Source: an uncultured Planctomycetales bacterium
GTDB taxonomy: Bacteria; Planctomycetota; Planctomycetia; Isosphaerales; Isosphaeraceae
DNA: 64,000 nucleotides
Direction of reading: 5' to 3'
NCBI GenBank assembly: GCA_903926465.1
Contig: CAIYJE010000131.1
Coordinates: 1-64,000 of the forward strand
Shown: positions 13,471 through 34,096 of the stretch, piece after piece
How the letters are laid out: the number at the start of each line of letters is the position of its first letter
Numbering within the stretch: position 1 is the stretch's first letter
Position numbers and translations under genes: made by a program
Notes under the pieces: generated by a model
Database searches by the model: none
What the model was told of the DNA's origin: nothing
The model's input: the letters and a program-made list of their open reading frames with translations, nothing else

Positions 13471-13552
13471 ACCTGAAGCCAATCCGGGTTCTCCGGCATG
13501 CGTGACCACTCATCGTTCGCGGTTTTGAATGCGCCACGCGGAGGTCTTTGTC

Positions 13553-14953
13553 ATGTCGATACCCCATGAACCTTCAGAACCCCAGCTCCTTTGCCGCTGT
13601 GGCGAAAGTTTGAGCCTGGCCGGTGCAACCCCTGGCCGGGTTGGCCGCTGTCCCTCTTGTGGTCGCCGATTTCAGGTGGAAAGTGATCCGTTTCCGGACC
13701 ATGAGCCTGGCCCGGTTGAGGATCAGGAACGTGTTAAGCCTGGCTCAACCTTCTCTCCGGCTGATCCCACCACCGCTCAGAACGATTCCGGCGATTCGCA
13801 GATCCGTTCCGATGCGGGGTATGACCTGGGCCCCGAGCTCGAAGTTCAGCGCACCAAGCCATCGGCCCATAAGAGCTTTCCGACCAGTCCCGAGCCGGAG
13901 CGTGAGGCCCGTTCCCCAGCGTCTGGCACCCATGAGAAGCCAAAGCGCGACCGGGACGCCTGGCGATCGGACGCACCCAGAAAAAAGCCAACGGCTGCGG
14001 TGGAAACCGAGGCGGTGGCCAGTGGCGCAGTGGGGCGCGGTGGTATTCTGCCGTTACCCAGGGAGCGGGAATCCACGCTGCTTGGATCTCTTCGCTATCC
14101 CCTTTGGGACATGCTGGGAATTGCCTGCCCGCTTTTGATTGCTCCGATCATGTCGGTGCTCTCGCTGATTGTGCTGGGTGCCATGCCCATGGTGAACCGT
14201 GGGGGCGAGATGCTGGTGATTGGGCCGATCACGTTCGGATTTGCGATCATCTTTGCCCTGGGGCTTGGCTTTGTGCTCCAGATTTTTGAAGCGGTAATTG
14301 TGGCGTCGGCGCAGGGGGAGGTTCATCATCCCCGCTGGCCCGATCTTGAACTGGCTGCGGCCCTCAGAACCCTGGTGCGCTGGGGGCTTGCCTGGGGACC
14401 GCCGCTGGCGCTGATCTGGTACGGCTTGAAGGCCTTGAATGTGGGTGGTGCGGAAAGTTTGATGGGTCAGCTCTTTCTGGCAGGAATTTATGCCTTGTCT
14501 GGAGCGTTCGCTCTGGTGAGCCTGCTGGCGATGGTCATGCACGAAGACATTGGCGCGGCCTTGCCTCAGACGGTCTTGCCAGCCATGTTTCGGCTGGGCA
14601 CCGGCCTGCTGGGGCCGTTGGGCTTGCTGGTGCTTACGGTGGTGCTAAGCGTGTTGGGCTATGCCATGCTTTTCAGGATGGGCCTGACCCTGGGCCTTGT
14701 GCCCTTACTGCTGGCAACCTGGCTGGCGTGGGTGCTTTTGCTGTTTGCGAGCCTGGTGGTGATGCGGGCCCTGGGCAACGCCTATCAGAGCCGGATCCAG
14801 CAAGTTGGCTGGTTCTACCGGGAACCGAAGCGGGAAACGGTGGCCACCGAGCCACCGCCGCCGATTGAGGCTTCTTCGACGGTGCCGGTTGTGCCACGTG
14901 GTCCTGCGTCGGAGCCAATTCCCGTGGAAGACGATGGCATGGGCGACTGGTGA
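13553..14953 (+). CDS. Zinc-ribbon multi-pass membrane protein of unknown function
   Basis: The 466-residue product starts with a zinc ribbon: two CxC/CxxC-type knuckles (LCRCGESLSL and RCPSCGRRF) within the first ~45 residues. A polar, charged linker follows to about residue 180, then about six membrane helices (for example LLIAPIMSVLSLIVLGAMPM, FAIIFALGLGFVLQIFEAVIV, GLLGPLGLLVLTVVLSVLGYAML). The C-terminus is proline-rich and soluble. This resembles planctomycete DUF4013-like/zinc-ribbon membrane proteins, but I do not recognise a function. ATG 13553 has GGAGG 8 bases upstream, which decides the start over ATG 13529. It follows the BlaI gene by 82 bases and may be co-transcribed with it. 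Confidence 0.8.
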   Translation: MSIPHEPSEPQLLCRCGESLSLAGATPGRVGRCPSCGRRFQVESDPFPDHEPGPVEDQERVKPGSTFSPADPTTAQNDSGDSQIRSDAGYDLGPELEVQRTKPSAHKSFPTSPEPEREARSPASGTHEKPKRDRDAWRSDAPRKKPTAAVETEAVASGAVGRGGILPLPRERESTLLGSLRYPLWDMLGIACPLLIAPIMSVLSLIVLGAMPMVNRGGEMLVIGPITFGFAIIFALGLGFVLQIFEAVIVASAQGEVHHPRWPDLELAAALRTLVRWGLAWGPPLALIWYGLKALNVGGAESLMGQLFLAGIYALSGAFALVSLLAMVMHEDIGAALPQTVLPAMFRLGTGLLGPLGLLVLTVVLSVLGYAMLFRMGLTLGLVPLLLATWLAWVLLLFASLVVMRALGNAYQSRIQQVGWFYREPKRETVATEPPPPIEASSTVPVVPRGPASEPIPVEDDGMGDW

Positions 14954-24791: not shown

Positions 24792-25125
24792 GTTGTGTCC
24801 TCTCGTGAAAGACCAAGACCATCGCCCGTACTCTGACCACCGCTCAAAGTTTAACACTTAACTTCAACCGGTTCGATGAGGTAAAGAGAGTAGATGCCGG
24901 AAATGGTGCCAGCTTGTGCGTTTGGGTTACCGTTTTCAGTCGCCCCGGTGATATCCAAAATCGTCGGTCGGATTGCCTTTGGGGCTGTTTGCGCTAGGAT
25001 ACCCAGGTACACGCGGGTGGTTCGCCATTGGAGCCCGTGGGGGGTCGGTTGTCGCTGGACAACCCGGTAACCCTGAATCGCACTCCCAGAATTGCGACCT
25101 CAAGTATTTCATTCCTGGTGCTTTC
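24792..25125. other. Divergent intergenic region
   Basis: This region lies between the FAD subunit gene (minus) and the DIP1984-type gene (plus) and must hold both promoters. No clear -35/-10 pair or palindrome was found. Confidence 0.4.
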
Positions 25126-25581
25126 ATGAAGCTGGCTGAAGCCTTGATTTTACGCGCCGACTGCCAGAAGCGGCTGGAGCAACTCCGGGCCCGCATCTTG
25201 CTCTGCGTCAAGGTGCAAGAGGGGGACGTCCCGCCCGAAGATCCCGCTGCGCTGCTGGCCGAGGCCGCCCGCACGGCCGATCAGTTTGAGCGGCTAATCC
25301 AGCAGGTTAATCGGACCAACTCCGTGACCAGGCTGGAGGGGTCCTCACTTTCAGACCTGCTGGCCAGACGCGATGTGCTCAGCCAGCGGCGAACCTTGCT
25401 GACGGCTGTGGCCGAGGCGGCCGTGGTGCAGCAGAACGCGTACAGCAAGTCCGAGGTCCGGTTCCGGAGCACGGTCGACATTGCGGCCCTGCGAAAGCAA
25501 GCCGATGAACTGGCCAAGGAACACCGCGAACTGGATGCACGCATCCAGGAGGCGAACTGGAAAACCGATCTGGTCCCCTGA
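25126..25581 (+). CDS. DIP1984-family protein
   Basis: The 151-residue product is helical and matches the DIP1984 family (named after a Corynebacterium diphtheriae protein): MKLAEALILRADCQKRLEQLRARI at the start, INRTNS-like QVNRTNSVTRLEGSSLSDLLARRD in the middle, SKSEVRF and VDIAALRKQADELAKEHRELDARIQEANW at the end. Coiled-coil propensity is high. The biochemical role of the family is unclear; it is often found in addiction or DNA-repair neighbourhoods but none is evident here. ATG 25126 matches the family start. The downstream 230 bases run into a strong terminator at 25816. Confidence 0.88.
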   Translation: MKLAEALILRADCQKRLEQLRARILLCVKVQEGDVPPEDPAALLAEAARTADQFERLIQQVNRTNSVTRLEGSSLSDLLARRDVLSQRRTLLTAVAEAAVVQQNAYSKSEVRFRSTVDIAALRKQADELAKEHRELDARIQEANWKTDLVP

Positions 25582-25917: not shown

Positions 25918-28900
25918 TCACGCCTTCCAGAGCTTGACCTGGTCCACCACGCTGAGGATTTCGGTCCGCTTCTTCTCAAACACGGCGAACAGGGCCAGAA
26001 TCAAGATTCCAGCCATGATTCCGCAGGCCCACCAGATCCAGGTTTGGTGCAGGTCAACGGCGGCGTACCAGATGATCGAGAACACGGCCAGGGTCAAGAA
26101 CCCCATTCCCAGGAGCAGGAAGTTGCGAATCTGGAGCAAAATCCCCAGAAAGATTCCGGCTATTGACAGCAAGGCCAGTACCAGTGGCAGCCAGGGAGAC
26201 TGCGCAACTCCCGTCAGAATGATGTCGGCCGTTGATGAGAGATAGATCGCCAGCGCGGCCCCCTGACGCAGGATTGCCGTTTGCAATTCACTGAGCCGCT
26301 CACGGTTCAGGTAGGTGGCCACCAGCACGCAGAGGGCGGGCGGAATGACCCAGAGTTGTGGGTGTTGAGCCAGGCCAAACCCCTCAAGTCGACCGAGCTG
26401 GCTCCAGAGCGCGGCGTTGAAGGCCAGGGTTGAGAGCATGGCAAAGCCAGGGGAAGAACGGAGCAACGAGAAGGTGGCGTAAAGGCCACCACACAGCACC
26501 AGAAACACCAGGTCTTCGCCCGGTTTGGGGATGGTCCAGAAGGCCGACAGCAGCGGGAGCAGGGGCAACAACGCGCCCGTGTTGGCCACGGGATCGGCCA
26601 GCACGGTCTGGCCTTTGCGCCGGAAGAACTCGCTGAGCCCCGCGCCCAGAAACGCCAAGCCCACTACGATCAACGGCCAGTACTGGGCAAAGATCCCGGT
26701 GAACAGCCAGGGAAGTGTCATTCCCAGGTGTAAGAGCAAGGCGGCCAGCAGCCCTTCGCAGGCGTAAACGTAGGCCGTACGGCCACGCTCAGACAGTCCA
26801 AACGGGTCGCGGCCCGGCACAACCGCAGCCAGAATAGCCGCCACCGCCGCGCCCAGTATGGCCAGGGCCATCGCCACAATCGAGGGGGCCGAAATGGGCA
26901 CAATCGACCGGTTCCAGCGTGCCTGCACTTCCACGGTAAAGATCACGGCCAGTGTTAACGCCGCCAGTGCCAGCAAACTGGGCACCAGCTTGCGGGCGGC
27001 CACCGCCCAATCGGTGAGCATGGGGAAGAGCTTGGAAAGTCCCAGGCCGTAAAGTGAGCTGGTGCCAATCAGGGCGACCAGTACGACGACGAACCGATCC
27101 AGCGTGGCAAAGTTGGCCGTGGGGGGAATCGACGCCCAGCCCCAGGCCACCGCGCCGATCACACCCACCCCCAGCGCCACCCCTTGTAACCACCACCGAC
27201 GCGCACCTTGAGCCAGCAAGCCAATGGCCAGCACCTCGGCAACCGCCGCCTGGGCTGTAGCCGAACGAAACACCAGTTCGGGCTCGGTCAAGATCGAACC
27301 GAACGCCAGGGTAATCACACCAGCCGCCAGCAGCAGATTGGCCGGCACCAGCCAGGTCAGATCGGCCTCCGGATGATTCAATTCCAGCTGCGGAATCCCC
27401 AGCCGGTTCGCCAGGTTGCGGAACTTCAGGCGTTGATTCCAGAGATAGCTGGCCAGCACCGAGTACGCCGAAAGAACCATCGTGGCGGTCCAGGTTAACC
27501 AGCGGGCGGAAACCTGAAGCTGGTCCAGACCCAATCCACAGGCGCATAGCCCCAGCAAATACAGCCCGGCCAGTGCGGCCTTTTCTCGGCCGTCCCAGAG
27601 CGCAGAGATAAAGGCGGCGGCCACCGCGGCGATCGCCAGCCAGCTCAGAGATGGGTGAATCGAAGTGTGATATGACGCATACAAGTTGAAATCCACGCTC
27701 AATGCCACCACCAATGCCAGGATCACCAGCGACATCCACGAGGCAATGCGAGGGAATGGTAGAGTGGCGAGCCTGAGGAAACGGTGACCGGTTCCAGGCC
27801 AAGGTTCCCCTCCCTTGCTGCGGGCAGGCTGTAAGAAGCGTCGGTCGAGCCAGTGCCAGATTGCAACCGGCGCGGCTAGAGCCACAATGTTCACATTCAA
27901 CAGGTTGACGAGCGCCGACCACGGATCAAGGGGCCCACCAGCCCAGGCCCAGGATGTATTCTGCCACCAGATCGTTGCTGCGATGTTCCCCAGAATTCCA
28001 GTCACGGTGATGTACCGCGGCCGTGTTGACCAGGCAGCCAGCAGCGCTGAGAGAACGACCATAGACAGCAGCGGTCCCACGCTCCACCAGCTTGAAAATC
28101 TGCTCGATCCCAGACTCCCCAGCCCAAACAGGGTTCCCAGCGCCAGGCAAATGGTTCCCCAGCGTACGACGGCCAAACGTGCGGTTGCCGGAACATTGCT
28201 CAGCTTCAGGCCGGCGTTGTGCCAGGCGAACAAGGGCAGCGCAAAACCAACCAAAATCCAGCCCACCAGCAGACCGCGATAGGCCAGCCAGTTTCCGGTG
28301 TCGCGAGTGACCAAGCCGGTTGCCAGCCAGATCACAAGGTTCAGCAGCCAGAGCCCCAACCAGTCTGACGAATTCGCCATGATCTTCAGGCGAACGAGAA
28401 TCAGGAACCCACCCAGGGCCAGACCCAGCGAAAGCAGGCCCCCGGGGCCGGCAATCGCCTGGTGCACTGGGCCTGGTACTGGGTTCAGGAACAGCATGGT
28501 TGCCCCACCGGCAAGCAACAAGGTATTGAGTGCAATGCTCAGCAGTACCAAAGTGGTCTGAAGTCTGCGGGCGTCCACCCATTCCGCCAGGTAGTATCTT
28601 CTGAGCCAGCCCCGAACGGTACCAATCCAGGCCAGTGCATAAATGGCTGCAACGCTTGCGTTCAACTGGGCGAGCTGGACCCAGAACATCGCATCCATGC
28701 CCCGTCCTGCCTCGGCAGCAGGAACGATGTACCCCACCGTGGCTGCCAGGTTGATCATGAGTCCGGCCGCGAACGCGAACCGGGCCGACCGGTCTCGGAT
28801 TGCATATCCCAGTAGCGTGATTGCCAGTACCACCAGGGGAATGAGCGACCAGACCGATTGGCCCAGCCGGGCGAAGGTCGAACCTGGCTCCGGGCCGACC

Positions 28901-31900
28901 ATAGGGTCTTGATCCAGGATCGAAACCAGGATAAAGGCACTTATCGCAAAGCAGGGAAAAATTCCCAACAAGAGTACAAGCCAAGCTGCTGGGCGAATCC
29001 ACCGCTGCCCTCCCTTCTCCACCTTTGGTTCCGTGTCGAAACCAGATCTGCTCCAGGCTTGAAGGAACGCCGCAACCGCACCCAAGACAAGAAGTGATAA
29101 TATACTTGAACCCCAGGCCCATTCCATGTTCGCTGGAGGCCGATGATGGACTAACGCGGCATTTGTAACATGGCCAAAGATTATTGCCAGCGGACCCACC
29201 ACCGCTAGAAACAAGGCACAAGTTGCGTTTCGCGTCAGATTCTTGACCTGGAAGGGGTCGATCTTCCAGCCCAGCCGGGTGCCTAGGAGCGCCAGGCGCT
29301 GGCGGTTCCAGATCAAGATCGAGAGGCCGAGTAAAACCACGGTACTGACCCAGAAAAACGCGGTTGCCGCCGCCACCTCCACTTCCCATCGCCCTGCCCA
29401 TAGCAGGGCCGCCAGAGAGGCCGTGGCCAGTGCCAACAGCGTGTCGAACTGGCGGAACCGCTCCCAGTTGCCTGCCAGCAACACCAGGATGGCCATTCCC
29501 AGCACCCCCCATGAACCAATACCAAGAGCGTGGCGATGAGGGATTTGGGCGATTTCAAACAGGGTGGCTGGTGCCACCACGCGGGCTGCACCCAGTGGGG
29601 AGCCGCCCACCAGTTGGGTGGAAAGGCTGCGCTGGGAGACTTCCTGGAGGATGCCTGGGGCCGCTCCATAAACGGCCAGCATTACCGCGACCAGTGCCAG
29701 TGCGGCTCGTAGTGTCCGGTCGAAGGCGGGCCAGGGTGGGTTGAGCAGTGTCGAGAGTTTGGAGATCAGCGGTGATCTCTCGGGATTGCTTTCAAGCGAT
29801 TTCTGGACCCAAACGCGGACGGCAATCCAGCCCAGGCAAACCAGGCCCAGAGTCAGGGCAACGGCCTGGATTGTCCAGGGGTCGAGCCAGGGTCGAGCCG
29901 ATTCCGCGAACCAGGCTTGATGACGCAGGCTGGCCCCCACGTCGAACGTGATTGATGCCGCGAGTGCAGCCTGGAAAACGCCAAATTGTACTGGGTGGCT
30001 TTGGTGCCAGGCCAGGGCCAGCCAAAGTCCGGCCAGCCAGAGCAAGCGTGCGGCCAGCAAGGCCGAGCCAGCCACGGGTAGAGCCGCAACCAGCACGATG
30101 GTGGATGCGAGTGTGCTGAGTCGCGCGGACTGTTCCAGAATTTCGAGCATGCGGGCTCTGGTTAGCTCGGCGCTGGGGGGGAGGATTCTGAGCAAGCCGG
30201 CTCCCAGGGCGCAGAGTGTGGCGTGGGCCAGCAGGGCGAAGGTCCAGGGTAGAGAGAGCGAGTGGGTGCCACTGAGTGCGCTTTGTAACAAGGTGGCCAG
30301 CAACAGGCCGGACCCGAGCCAGGTCAGAACGGTGAGTTCTTGGAAGCCTGATCCACCGGCCAGCAGGGGATTGCGCCCAAACCAGGCCGCGCTCGCCAAG
30401 GCCAGCAGGGCGTAGGTACCCAAAACCCAGGTGGTTTCCCAGTGGTTCCCAGCCAAGCCAATTCCCAGCCAGTCGATCAGGCCCAGACTGATAAGCCCAG
30501 CCAAACTTGCAACCATGGCCAGAGCCCGGGCGTCGGGCCGCCGGCCGTGGCAAACTCCCAGCCCGGTCAGGAACGTGGTCAGCAACACGAACGGAACCAG
30601 CGCGGAGCCACTCTGGCCAGAGAGCAATGCCTTGGTGGTTTGCGCGGGCGTGACCCCGGTCCAGCCCAGATCTCCGGCCGCCACGTGCCAGGCCAGCAGG
30701 TAGGCCAGCATCAGGCTGAATCCTGCAAGAATGTGGATTGCCGGCACCTGGAATACCAGGGCGACAGCCGCCAGCACGGCACAGCTTAGCAGGAGACCGG
30801 GCATCATCTTCGCCGGCTGCGGCCAGCCTAGCGCGGCCCCTGCCAGCATCAGCAGAATGGCCGCGGTGGCAATGGCGGTTCCGGCGGTTCGGTAGCTAAC
30901 GAGTTCTCTGGCCCTCATCCGTTGCCAGAGGAACAGACCGGTTGCCAGCACCGGCGCGCTCACCAGTGGCGCCAATGGAGAAAGCCGGTGCAGTGTGGCC
31001 AGCACGGGCCCCTCGCGGGCGATCAGCAGCCCGAGCGCAATCGTGGCCGCAAAGCACGTAAGCCCCAGTAACCGTAGCAGTTGATGAGCCAGCGATTCGT
31101 CGGATTCGGTCGTGCGGCTTGATCGTGCCAGAAAGCCGCCAATCGCGGCTCCCTGCCCCAGGTAGGGAAGGGCGGCCATCGCCAGCAGTCCCTGGCTCCC
31201 CAGACTGGTGCCAAAGCCAACACGGCCCAGCAGCATGGCAAGGGATGGAACCAAAACGCCCAAGGTGAGCGCAGCGGGCATGCGCGGCACCAGCGATTGT
31301 CCTGCCCGGAAGGTGAGCCAGCCGGAAAGACCGATCGCCGCCAGGTCACCTAGAATCGTGGCCAGCCAGCCGGGATCTGACCCTCTTGAGAACGCCGCGA
31401 TGGCCAGAAAGTTCAGGGGAACCAGCAAGGTGCCAATCACAAACAGCCCGCGTGCCGTGTTGGGTAAGGCCCAACGCTTCTCAGCGCGAATTCCCACCAG
31501 ATAGAGCAGGGCCGTTACACCATTGAAGAGTCCGAATTTCAGCAGCGGCTGTTCGGCGATACTCGACCAGAAGCTGATCACCAGCGCCAGCGAACAGCCA
31601 ACAATGAGCAAGCCACCGACAACTTCACCCCAGCGGATGTTGGACGCTTCCAGGAACCGAGAGAACAGGCCGAGCCACGGCTGGGTGCGCTCGGCCGCTG
31701 GGGCCGCGCTCCGTTCAGGCTGAGCCTGTTCAATTGTGGTATTTTGAGCAGCAGCCAGAAGGGGCGGGCGGTTTGGCGCGGGCGGCTGCGTAACCGGCTT
31801 TGGAACGGGTTGCTGGCGGGATTGCTCGGGTGGCACCGTCTGAGTGTGCACAGTGAGTGGCCGGGTTGTCTGGAGCACCGGCTGAGGGCGAATCTTCTCC

Positions 31901-32250
31901 CCAACGATGTGCGGGATCATCTGGGCGCATTCGTCGGCAGTGATCAGGCCCGCCTTGGTGTAACGCAACGCTCGAGCTCGTAGAACAGCCAGCACATGAT
32001 CGGGGTTTGGGCTGGCTTTGGTGATTGGCCCAGATTTTGACCATGTGCACATCGGGCAAGCGTTCAGTCCCGCGTCTTTCTTCCAGGCCTCGCCGCACAC
32101 GGGACACATCTCGGCCAGAATTGGCTCGCGTTGTTCGGGGCCCCACATCCGCGCCAAGCCCTGAAATAAACCGAGGATCGCAAGCCAGAGAACATGGCCG
32201 GCCATTGCAAACAGGGCGGTGCCGATCAAAAAAGAGAAAATCAATTCCAT
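25918..32250 (-). CDS. Giant polytopic membrane protein with N-terminal zinc ribbon
   Basis: A single 2110-residue frame. A first membrane helix (about 3-30) is followed by a zinc ribbon with C49, C52, C65 and C68, a short helical segment (82-115, AKAGLITADECAQMI-like), a Pro/Gln-rich linker (about 120-190), and then an almost continuous series of several dozen hydrophobic helices to the C-terminus. GGLLIVGCSLALVISFW near 215 and repeated LLxxA and GWxxA patterns suggest internal duplication, reminiscent of the DUF2157/DUF2339 class of poly-helix proteins, but I cannot assign it. ATG 32250 is preceded by GAGG. There are no frameshifts over 6.3 kb, so it is under selection. Function is unknown; a divergent sigma-54 activator starts 289 bases away. 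Confidence 0.85.
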   Translation of the reverse strand: MELIFSFLIGTALFAMAGHVLWLAILGLFQGLARMWGPEQREPILAEMCPVCGEAWKKDAGLNACPMCTWSKSGPITKASPNPDHVLAVLRARALRYTKAGLITADECAQMIPHIVGEKIRPQPVLQTTRPLTVHTQTVPPEQSRQQPVPKPVTQPPAPNRPPLLAAAQNTTIEQAQPERSAAPAAERTQPWLGLFSRFLEASNIRWGEVVGGLLIVGCSLALVISFWSSIAEQPLLKFGLFNGVTALLYLVGIRAEKRWALPNTARGLFVIGTLLVPLNFLAIAAFSRGSDPGWLATILGDLAAIGLSGWLTFRAGQSLVPRMPAALTLGVLVPSLAMLLGRVGFGTSLGSQGLLAMAALPYLGQGAAIGGFLARSSRTTESDESLAHQLLRLLGLTCFAATIALGLLIAREGPVLATLHRLSPLAPLVSAPVLATGLFLWQRMRARELVSYRTAGTAIATAAILLMLAGAALGWPQPAKMMPGLLLSCAVLAAVALVFQVPAIHILAGFSLMLAYLLAWHVAAGDLGWTGVTPAQTTKALLSGQSGSALVPFVLLTTFLTGLGVCHGRRPDARALAMVASLAGLISLGLIDWLGIGLAGNHWETTWVLGTYALLALASAAWFGRNPLLAGGSGFQELTVLTWLGSGLLLATLLQSALSGTHSLSLPWTFALLAHATLCALGAGLLRILPPSAELTRARMLEILEQSARLSTLASTIVLVAALPVAGSALLAARLLWLAGLWLALAWHQSHPVQFGVFQAALAASITFDVGASLRHQAWFAESARPWLDPWTIQAVALTLGLVCLGWIAVRVWVQKSLESNPERSPLISKLSTLLNPPWPAFDRTLRAALALVAVMLAVYGAAPGILQEVSQRSLSTQLVGGSPLGAARVVAPATLFEIAQIPHRHALGIGSWGVLGMAILVLLAGNWERFRQFDTLLALATASLAALLWAGRWEVEVAAATAFFWVSTVVLLGLSILIWNRQRLALLGTRLGWKIDPFQVKNLTRNATCALFLAVVGPLAIIFGHVTNAALVHHRPPANMEWAWGSSILSLLVLGAVAAFLQAWSRSGFDTEPKVEKGGQRWIRPAAWLVLLLGIFPCFAISAFILVSILDQDPMVGPEPGSTFARLGQSVWSLIPLVVLAITLLGYAIRDRSARFAFAAGLMINLAATVGYIVPAAEAGRGMDAMFWVQLAQLNASVAAIYALAWIGTVRGWLRRYYLAEWVDARRLQTTLVLLSIALNTLLLAGGATMLFLNPVPGPVHQAIAGPGGLLSLGLALGGFLILVRLKIMANSSDWLGLWLLNLVIWLATGLVTRDTGNWLAYRGLLVGWILVGFALPLFAWHNAGLKLSNVPATARLAVVRWGTICLALGTLFGLGSLGSSRFSSWWSVGPLLSMVVLSALLAAWSTRPRYITVTGILGNIAATIWWQNTSWAWAGGPLDPWSALVNLLNVNIVALAAPVAIWHWLDRRFLQPARSKGGEPWPGTGHRFLRLATLPFPRIASWMSLVILALVVALSVDFNLYASYHTSIHPSLSWLAIAAVAAAFISALWDGREKAALAGLYLLGLCACGLGLDQLQVSARWLTWTATMVLSAYSVLASYLWNQRLKFRNLANRLGIPQLELNHPEADLTWLVPANLLLAAGVITLAFGSILTEPELVFRSATAQAAVAEVLAIGLLAQGARRWWLQGVALGVGVIGAVAWGWASIPPTANFATLDRFVVVLVALIGTSSLYGLGLSKLFPMLTDWAVAARKLVPSLLALAALTLAVIFTVEVQARWNRSIVPISAPSIVAMALAILGAAVAAILAAVVPGRDPFGLSERGRTAYVYACEGLLAALLLHLGMTLPWLFTGIFAQYWPLIVVGLAFLGAGLSEFFRRKGQTVLADPVANTGALLPLLPLLSAFWTIPKPGEDLVFLVLCGGLYATFSLLRSSPGFAMLSTLAFNAALWSQLGRLEGFGLAQHPQLWVIPPALCVLVATYLNRERLSELQTAILRQGAALAIYLSSTADIILTGVAQSPWLPLVLALLSIAGIFLGILLQIRNFLLLGMGFLTLAVFSIIWYAAVDLHQTWIWWACGIMAGILILALFAVFEKKRTEILSVVDQVKLWKA

Positions 32251-32539
32251 CGCCGTACCTCGGTTCGCAAATCAAGCCTGAGCAAACGAGTGCACCGGGT
32301 GACAAGATTCCTGGCTCACCGGCACCAGCCAAGCTCTTCACGCGGTCCATGCTCCAAGCCCGCTTTTAAACACATTTCGTGCCAAACCTGGAAAGAGTGC
32401 GGACATGGCTTTGATTCACGGGAAAGTGTGGCTGATTGCTGGCTGGGTGGTTTTACGATAAGGTAGCCTGGCCCAACATTTCATGCTGGGTGCGTGTGCG
32501 TGAAATGTCTGGCTGTGGATTTTGGTGAGGGCGGTCGAG

Positions 32540-34096
32540 ATGGCATTGTTTTCATCGACCGAGCGGCGGTTTGCCCAGGCAATTTCCGACCTGGCGCACT
32601 GCAACCCATTTGCGCCAGAACGAATGGCGTTTGAAAGAGCGGCGCTCGGGGACGAGTTTGATCCGCACCAGGCCGACTGGAACGTGCGGATCTGGAACCG
32701 GCCTGAAGACTGGCCAACCATCTCGCCCAACGTGCGGCGGTTGATCGAACGGAATGATGCGCTTCTGGACCGAGTGCAGTCCAAGCTTGCCCGAGATCCT
32801 GCCGCCAGCGGAGCAGAGGTGCGGCTCTACCAAGATCTGGTTCTGTTTGCGCTTTATTACCACCACTATGTGCTGTTTGAGCGAAAAATCCAGGACGACC
32901 AGGCAGGCAAGCCGACGGGCAAGGTAAAGCTGGTTGATCCTTTGATCCAGCACGCCAGCCGCTACTTGCGGTTTGCCGATCGCGACCTGGCGATGTGGGA
33001 TGAATTGCCCCACCTGATTGCCTGCCTTTACCAGGTGCGGCGCGCGTTTCATAACATTTATCACTACATTCTCGGTAAGTCGGAACCGGCCGTCAGGCTC
33101 CGGGCCGTGGTCTGGGAATCAATCTTCACGCATGACTTGAGGCGTTACCGCCGGGTCTTGTATGACCAGATGGCCAACTTCACCACGTTGATCACCGGCC
33201 CGTCGGGGACCGGTAAAGAACTGGTGGCCCGAGCGATTGGCCTTTCCCGTTATATTCCGTTTGAGGCTTCAACTGGCCGGTTCGCCGACAAGCGGGCCGA
33301 TTCGTTTTTTGCCTTGAATCTTTCGGCGCTCAGCCCGACGCTGATCGAGAGCGAGTTGTTCGGTCATAAACGGGGTAGCTTCACGGGCGCGATTGAAGAT
33401 CGCGTGGGCTGGCTTGAGGTCTGCCCAGCGTATGGCACGGTGTTTCTGGACGAGATTGGCGAGCTTGACCCGGCCATTCAGGTCAAGCTGCTGCGGGTGT
33501 TGCAGGATCGAAGCTTCAGCCGGCTGGGCGAAACGCAGGTCCGGCGGTTCCAGGGGAAGCTGATCGCCGCCACCAATCGCGACCTGGCGAGTCAGATGCG
33601 CCAGGGTGAGTTCCGGGAAGATCTTTATTATCGGCTCTGTTCCGATGTGGTGGTTGTGCCTGGGTTGCGGGAACGGATGCTTGATGATCCAACCGAACTC
33701 CCTGACCTGGTGAACCATATTGCCCAGCGCCTGGTGGGGGACGAAGCACCGGCGGTGGCAGAGGAGGTGATGGTGTCCATAGCCACCCACCTGGGAGTGA
33801 ACTACGCCTGGCCCGGCAATATTCGAGAGCTGGAACAGTGCGTACGGAACGTGCTGGTGCGAAAAGAATACCGCCCGGCCGCTCAGGCGCGACCCGAGGG
33901 ATCCGACCCGATGAAGGCGTTGTGGGCGGCGTTCACAGCCGGCGAGTTGACGGCCGATGCGGTGTTGCGGGCCTATTGCACGATCGTCTATGCCCGGACT
34001 GGTAGTTACGACGCCACGGCCCGCCAGATTGCGCTCGACCGCCGCACGGTCAAAGCCAAGGTGGATGAAGCCTTTCTGGCCGAACTCGGGGGCTGA
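32540..34096 (+). CDS. Sigma-54-dependent transcriptional activator with unusual N-terminal domain
   Basis: The 518-residue protein has a complete AAA+ sigma-54 interaction domain: Walker A GPSGTGK (220-226), the loop GSFTGA (279-284), Walker B VFLDE (301-305) and the arginine-finger region FREDLYYRL (358-366). A C-terminal helix-turn-helix lies at about 489-512 (DATARQIALDRRTVKAKVDE). The N-terminal ~210 residues are helical and match no receiver, PAS or GAF pattern that I recognise, so the signal is unknown. The loop has Ser where GAFTGA has Ala; Phe and Thr, needed for sigma-54 contact, are kept. ATG 32540 follows a TGAGGG box by 8 bases. It is divergent from the giant membrane protein gene. 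Confidence 0.9.
   Translation: MALFSSTERRFAQAISDLAHCNPFAPERMAFERAALGDEFDPHQADWNVRIWNRPEDWPTISPNVRRLIERNDALLDRVQSKLARDPAASGAEVRLYQDLVLFALYYHHYVLFERKIQDDQAGKPTGKVKLVDPLIQHASRYLRFADRDLAMWDELPHLIACLYQVRRAFHNIYHYILGKSEPAVRLRAVVWESIFTHDLRRYRRVLYDQMANFTTLITGPSGTGKELVARAIGLSRYIPFEASTGRFADKRADSFFALNLSALSPTLIESELFGHKRGSFTGAIEDRVGWLEVCPAYGTVFLDEIGELDPAIQVKLLRVLQDRSFSRLGETQVRRFQGKLIAATNRDLASQMRQGEFREDLYYRLCSDVVVVPGLRERMLDDPTELPDLVNHIAQRLVGDEAPAVAEEVMVSIATHLGVNYAWPGNIRELEQCVRNVLVRKEYRPAAQARPEGSDPMKALWAAFTAGELTADAVLRAYCTIVYARTGSYDATARQIALDRRTVKAKVDEAFLAELGG

Follow-up and report, generated by a model that had tools for sequence, protein, structure and literature searches.

A giant polytopic membrane protein of Planctomycetota and its shorter relatives encoded beside PspA

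What does a bacterium do with a single polypeptide that appears to cross the membrane several dozen times? The question is raised by a locus in a 64,000-nucleotide stretch of DNA from an uncultured Planctomycetales bacterium, which is referred to here as the window. On its minus strand (positions 25918-32250) lies a frame of 2110 amino acids that starts with ATG, contains no break and is preceded by a Shine-Dalgarno-like GAGG read from the sequence (32258-32261, minus strand). The original prediction had described an undamaged 6.3-kb frame, with no mention of the strand, and had presumed strong selection, and both points were borne out. In a search of 59 related genomes, homologues from other genera could be aligned over residues 4-2110 at 43%, 43% and 36% identity with zero internal stops; more distant homologues exist besides. 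Three close homologue pairs gave dN/dS values of about 0.17, 0.39 and 0.18. Full-length, stop-free homologues in other genera and the low dN/dS show that the frame is a genuine gene rather than a product of chance. By the same sequence comparisons the gene is under purifying selection, as synonymous changes far exceed amino-acid changes in all three pairs. A genome search found it as a single copy in its own genome.

The number of membrane helices was estimated with a hydropathy scan. At a GES mean of at least 1.0 the giant protein has 55 hydrophobic helices (48-59 depending on the threshold), about 54 of which come after the single N-terminal one; several dozen had been predicted. The same scan returned 43-58 helices for homologues of the giant, and in the controls 4 helices for MgtE (5 known) and 0 for three soluble neighbours. 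For the hydrophobic core, 54 helices were counted in the real sequence compared with a mean of 39.5 in shuffled versions. The giant is probably an unusually large bacterial membrane protein with about 55 membrane crossings.

The N-terminal part is built from several small elements, all encoded on the minus strand like the rest of the gene. A first transmembrane helix (residues 3-21, 32188-32244), identified by hydropathy and alignment, is followed by a conserved GHxxW motif. Next come a four-cysteine zinc ribbon (C49, C52, C65 and C68, pattern CxxC-x12-CxxC; 32047-32106), a SHOCT-like two-helix hairpin with the motif ..YxxxGLIT..E.. (residues 83-116, 31903-32004) and a Pro/Gln-rich linker (residues 117-195, 31666-31902). 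First helix, ribbon and linker had all been anticipated correctly from the sequence. A low-confidence AlphaFold2 model places the two helices of the hairpin at residues 83-99 and 105-116. Lys and Arg residues are distributed 88 to 44 between the two sides of the membrane, and because of this positive-inside bias ribbon and hairpin are predicted to lie in the cytoplasm.

The ribbon, which had given the protein its label in the original prediction, is present in 11 full-length homologues and missing in 7 of 18, while the hairpin is kept in many homologues, including some of the ribbon-less ones. Because of these losses the ribbon, judged from the alignments, is an accessory and not a defining feature of the family. 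Two relatives (L032:6470-12256 and L033:6682-12279) carry TPR repeats in place of the N-terminal ribbon, and this replacement suggests that cytoplasmic adaptors may be interchangeable on one membrane body. A second zinc-ribbon membrane protein is encoded elsewhere in the window (13529-14953; 474 amino acids, C-x-C...CPxC ribbon, about 6 helices, no Pfam family). It had been taken as a sign of a lineage-specific protein style; the ribbon protein is real, but it has no detectable similarity to the giant and was rejected as a relative.

From about residue 209 to the C-terminus the giant consists of a dense helix array. Its first part is an N-terminal membrane block (residues 196-300, 31351-31665, with NIRWGE-VGGLLIVG...LLVPLN) that hhalign also recognizes in a clade of shorter relatives and that is weakly DUF2157-like. 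Hydropathy and windowed profiles define a membrane core of about 45 helices (26851-31626), and the protein ends in a conserved C-terminal domain (residues 1800-2110, 25921-26853), which also occurs in the short clade and in further distant relatives. Conservation is highest in these last 310 residues (60% mean column identity), which contain the near-universal residues P1896, PQ1964-1965, P1970, R1983, R1995, G2081, E2092 and R2095. An internal self-comparison, proposed at the outset as a check for repeats, was partly positive: windowed profiles scored up to 53 compared with 32 in reversed controls, but revealed no clean tandem repeat unit. Comparison of the whole profile with itself gave no match, and its reversed control reached 71; we therefore draw on the windowed profiles only, which suggest old internal duplications and degenerate repeats in the core. 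AlphaFold2 models of residues 1640-2110 and 1-520, computed from two-sequence input, reached pLDDT values of 42-44 and provided no usable fold.

Searches of Pfam, NCBIfam and PDB returned no family match for the giant, in line with the original prediction, which had been unable to assign it to a known transporter or polysaccharide family. With respect to these libraries it represents an undescribed protein family of Planctomycetota. Eleven full-length members of 1746-2132 amino acids could be aligned end to end. Full-length homologues are 22-46% identical and spread across the phylum (one comes from the Planctomycetota MAG LB_PLM_3), and within the window's own family the majority of members lack the gene. 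A profile search with the C-terminal domain detected relatives in 34 of 392 genomes sampled across Planctomycetota; these belong to the full-length type, to a short type, or to longer, distant proteins of up to 2482 amino acids. The longest (L116:3759-11204) has about 73 hydrophobic helices by the hydropathy scan used above; its low-complexity stretch at about residues 147-320 weakly matches Sdr/Clf adhesin models, probably by composition. Members of the short clade have about 1225 amino acids and about 37 helices, and both their ends are common with the full-length clade: hhalign gave probabilities of 98.4% for the N-terminal block and 99.7% for the C-terminal domain, with far lower values for controls. 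On this profile evidence the two clades are homologous at both ends. When the C-terminal domains were placed in a tree, the two types came out as one group each (support 98/95 and 100/100), and one genome, G367, carries both types. Beyond Planctomycetota the search covered plasmids, which contained no relatives, and otherwise used a method that detects close relatives only. All searches fit a family confined to Planctomycetota, as had been expected, where the statement for other phyla refers to close relatives.

The short clade has a constant genomic neighbour. In 8 of 8 loci (L107-L113 and L133), from seven genera and four families, a PspA/IM30 gene lies immediately downstream; PF04012 E-values are 1e-38 to 1e-44 for those neighbours that were scanned. 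Seven of these loci were found first, and the eighth, from genome G116, was checked afterwards. Three of them (L109, L111 and L113) have a histidine kinase further along or nearby, two of these (L111 and L113) also an NtrC-type sigma-54 response regulator, and in the same two there are good -24/-12-like sites upstream of the short giant gene. Because the short-clade genes always adjoin PspA, a role of these proteins in membrane stress is suggested by analogy. Every fetched locus was scanned for pspA, and none was seen beside the window gene or in any of the 18 full-length loci. The window genome has one pspA, on another contig. The full-length clade has no conserved neighbourhood across its 18 loci, except for an activator gene in two loci. 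Downstream of the giant gene, the window contains a DUF6847 gene (PF20935) on the opposite strand (24973-25581), which is not conserved beside homologues.

The activator gene lies head-to-head with the giant gene in the window (32522-34096, plus strand) and encodes a sigma-54 activator with an AAA+ domain (PF00158, E 5.8e-48) and a C-terminal Fis-type HTH; relative to a PspF-like build it has an extra N-terminal region. In G367, which belongs to a distant family, an orthologue with 60% identity is found directly upstream of a full-length giant gene. Between the two lies a perfect -24/-12 promoter, CTGGCACG-GGTC-TTGCT, which is the only strict sigma-54 match within 19.7 kb. The corresponding candidate in the window, TTGGCACG-AAAT-GTGTT (32369-32385, minus strand), is located 135 bases before the start codon and has a perfect -24 and an imperfect -12 part. 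In 1 of 100 shuffles a site as good was found, and two-mismatch sigma-54 sites elsewhere in the window occur at chance level. Because of the imperfect -12 part, the window promoter is suggestive only.

In G415, G398 and G367 the activator's orthologue is transcribed divergently from a gene pair, one VIT-VWA and one rhomboid-like. The G367 activator is paired with both this gene pair and the giant gene, those of G415 and G398 with the pair instead of the giant. Such arrangements, in which the rhomboid-like gene is perhaps rhombosortase-like, were seen at L127:5941-10624, L128:9271-14928 and L130:7791-13628; beside the window activator no such pair was seen. The pair is possibly a separate envelope or surface-sorting system. 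Judged by gene order, the activator may belong mainly to the VIT-VWA/rhomboid-like system, and since its orthologues also pair with these genes, it may have several targets, among them the giant.

Neither the short clade beside PspA nor the neighbouring sigma-54 activator, the two features most informative about function, had figured in the original prediction. Several features of the family recall the phage-shock-protein (PSP) systems, in which PspA is paired with membrane proteins that detect or relay bilayer stress; the short clade, in operon with PspA, fits the position of a PSP membrane partner, though with far more helices. PspF, the regulator of the E. coli system, is a sigma-54 activator divergent from pspA, and the domains of PSP partners include DUF2157 (in LiaF) and SHOCT-like hairpins (PMC11237479). 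The B. subtilis pspA operon includes the gene for YdjG, a membrane-spanning protein that carries a zinc ribbon (PMC9239133). The proposed sigma-54-type control would resemble that by PspF, the ribbon of the giant resembles YdjG, and its hairpin resembles the SHOCT-like partners. However, the known membrane partners of PspA (PspB/PspC, LiaF/LiaI, YdjG) have a few helices compared with 37-55 here, and the full-length clade has no adjacent pspA. The likeness to DUF2157 was followed at the profile level. The window protein does not match PF09925, while the N-terminal block of short relatives matches the first DUF2157 helices over about 75 residues with E-values of 1e-5 to 5e-3 (17-25 bits compared with a cut-off of 32.4). 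A profile of the N-terminal block reached at best E 0.014 against real DUF2157 proteins. As only relatives match, and below the cut-off, we did not file the giant under DUF2157.

Our preferred reading, which we put forward tentatively and as possible rather than probable, is that the giant acts in the inner membrane as a scaffold or sensor for bilayer stress, a very large alternative to the small proteins that partner PspA in the membrane. A single chain of about 55 helices would form a large bilayer-embedded body that might react to perturbed lipid packing or buffer it. Two N-terminal elements predicted to be cytoplasmic, the ribbon and the two-helix hairpin, could link this body to partners in the cytoplasm. 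For the short clade this partner would be PspA, an ESCRT-III-like protein of membrane repair, and some loci would be under two-component, sigma-54-type control. In the lineage of the window the giant would act without a neighbouring pspA, and its gene may be activated by the sigma-54 activator next to it. The stress function, its transfer from the short clade to the full-length one and the mechanism in all its steps are inferences of ours; the gene-order and family facts we regard as solid. Against a stress scaffold or sensor speak the lack of a nearby pspA in all full-length loci, the pairing of activator orthologues with VIT-VWA and rhomboid-like genes, the imperfect -12 element of the window, the DUF2157 scores under the Pfam cut-off and the low pLDDT of the models.

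The nearest functional analogue of the giant is Arc3A (DUF2339, PF10101; PA5114 of Pseudomonas aeruginosa). This protein has 35 predicted helices and prevents the build-up of lysophospholipids under phospholipase attack; DUF2339 proteins are bacterial, with at least 30 helices and large differences in helix number among members (PMC8926400). Protection against lipase effectors by Arc3A-type proteins was independently confirmed (PMC12663445). If the giant worked alike, its helices would absorb lysophospholipids or shield the membrane from phospholipases, a PspA-independent case of membrane protection. The build is indeed the same, with one N-terminal helix as anchor, a soluble linker and a dense array of many transmembrane segments in a single chain, about 55 in the giant; unlike Arc3A, the giant has a zinc ribbon and hairpin, and its sister clade has PspA. 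Profile comparison did not support relatedness. There was no PF10101 match above the cut-off. Strong hhalign scores obtained at first came from an alignment that included out-of-frame upstream sequence, and reversed and shuffled controls scored equally high. After trimming, the signal was near background (41 compared with 27 in controls) and not in register with the start of DUF2339. In addition, true DUF2339 genes occur separately in Planctomycetota, and no Arc3B-type gene (PF13163) was found among the ten window neighbours that were scanned. We consider a protector of the Arc3A kind unlikely.

A transporter, flippase or exporter of a lipid or envelope polymer, grown by internal duplication and regulated or docked through the ribbon, would agree with the degenerate repeats and with the polar residues that are near-universal in the C-terminal helices, both of which could belong to a route for transport. 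Neither curated models nor solved structures gave a transporter family match, though, no conserved transporter-type partner genes accompany the giant in 18 loci, and to our knowledge about 55 helices is far beyond known transporter folds, so that we hold this explanation to be improbable. PspA-family proteins, to which the neighbours of the short clade belong, shape membranes, and a purely structural support for the cytoplasmic membrane of planctomycetes, with its strong curvature or invaginations, would agree with a family found so far only in Planctomycetota; its patchy presence there, and its absence from most of the window's own family, make this very improbable, as a general membrane-shape protein would be expected to occur more regularly.

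Returning to the bilayer-stress reading, single chains with about 55 membrane helices have rarely been described. Piezo channels, with 38 helices per subunit, belong to membrane-tension biology; they resemble the giant only in the high number of helices per chain, and no sequence similarity to it was seen in the searches made. Arc3A raised the question of what such helix arrays are for and left the mechanism aside. With one branch fixed beside PspA, the family provides a concrete partner for asking whether dense arrays of this kind act as sensors or buffers of the bilayer's state. In its broadest and more doubtful form, our proposal is a new class of giant bilayer stress sensors or buffers with 37 to more than 55 helices, which would replace the small partners of PspA in planctomycetes and whose full-length branch would be PspA-independent and run by its own sigma-54 activator. 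If true, this would extend the kinds of PSP membrane partners to Planctomycetota, a phylum that two PSP surveys do not mention in their main text.
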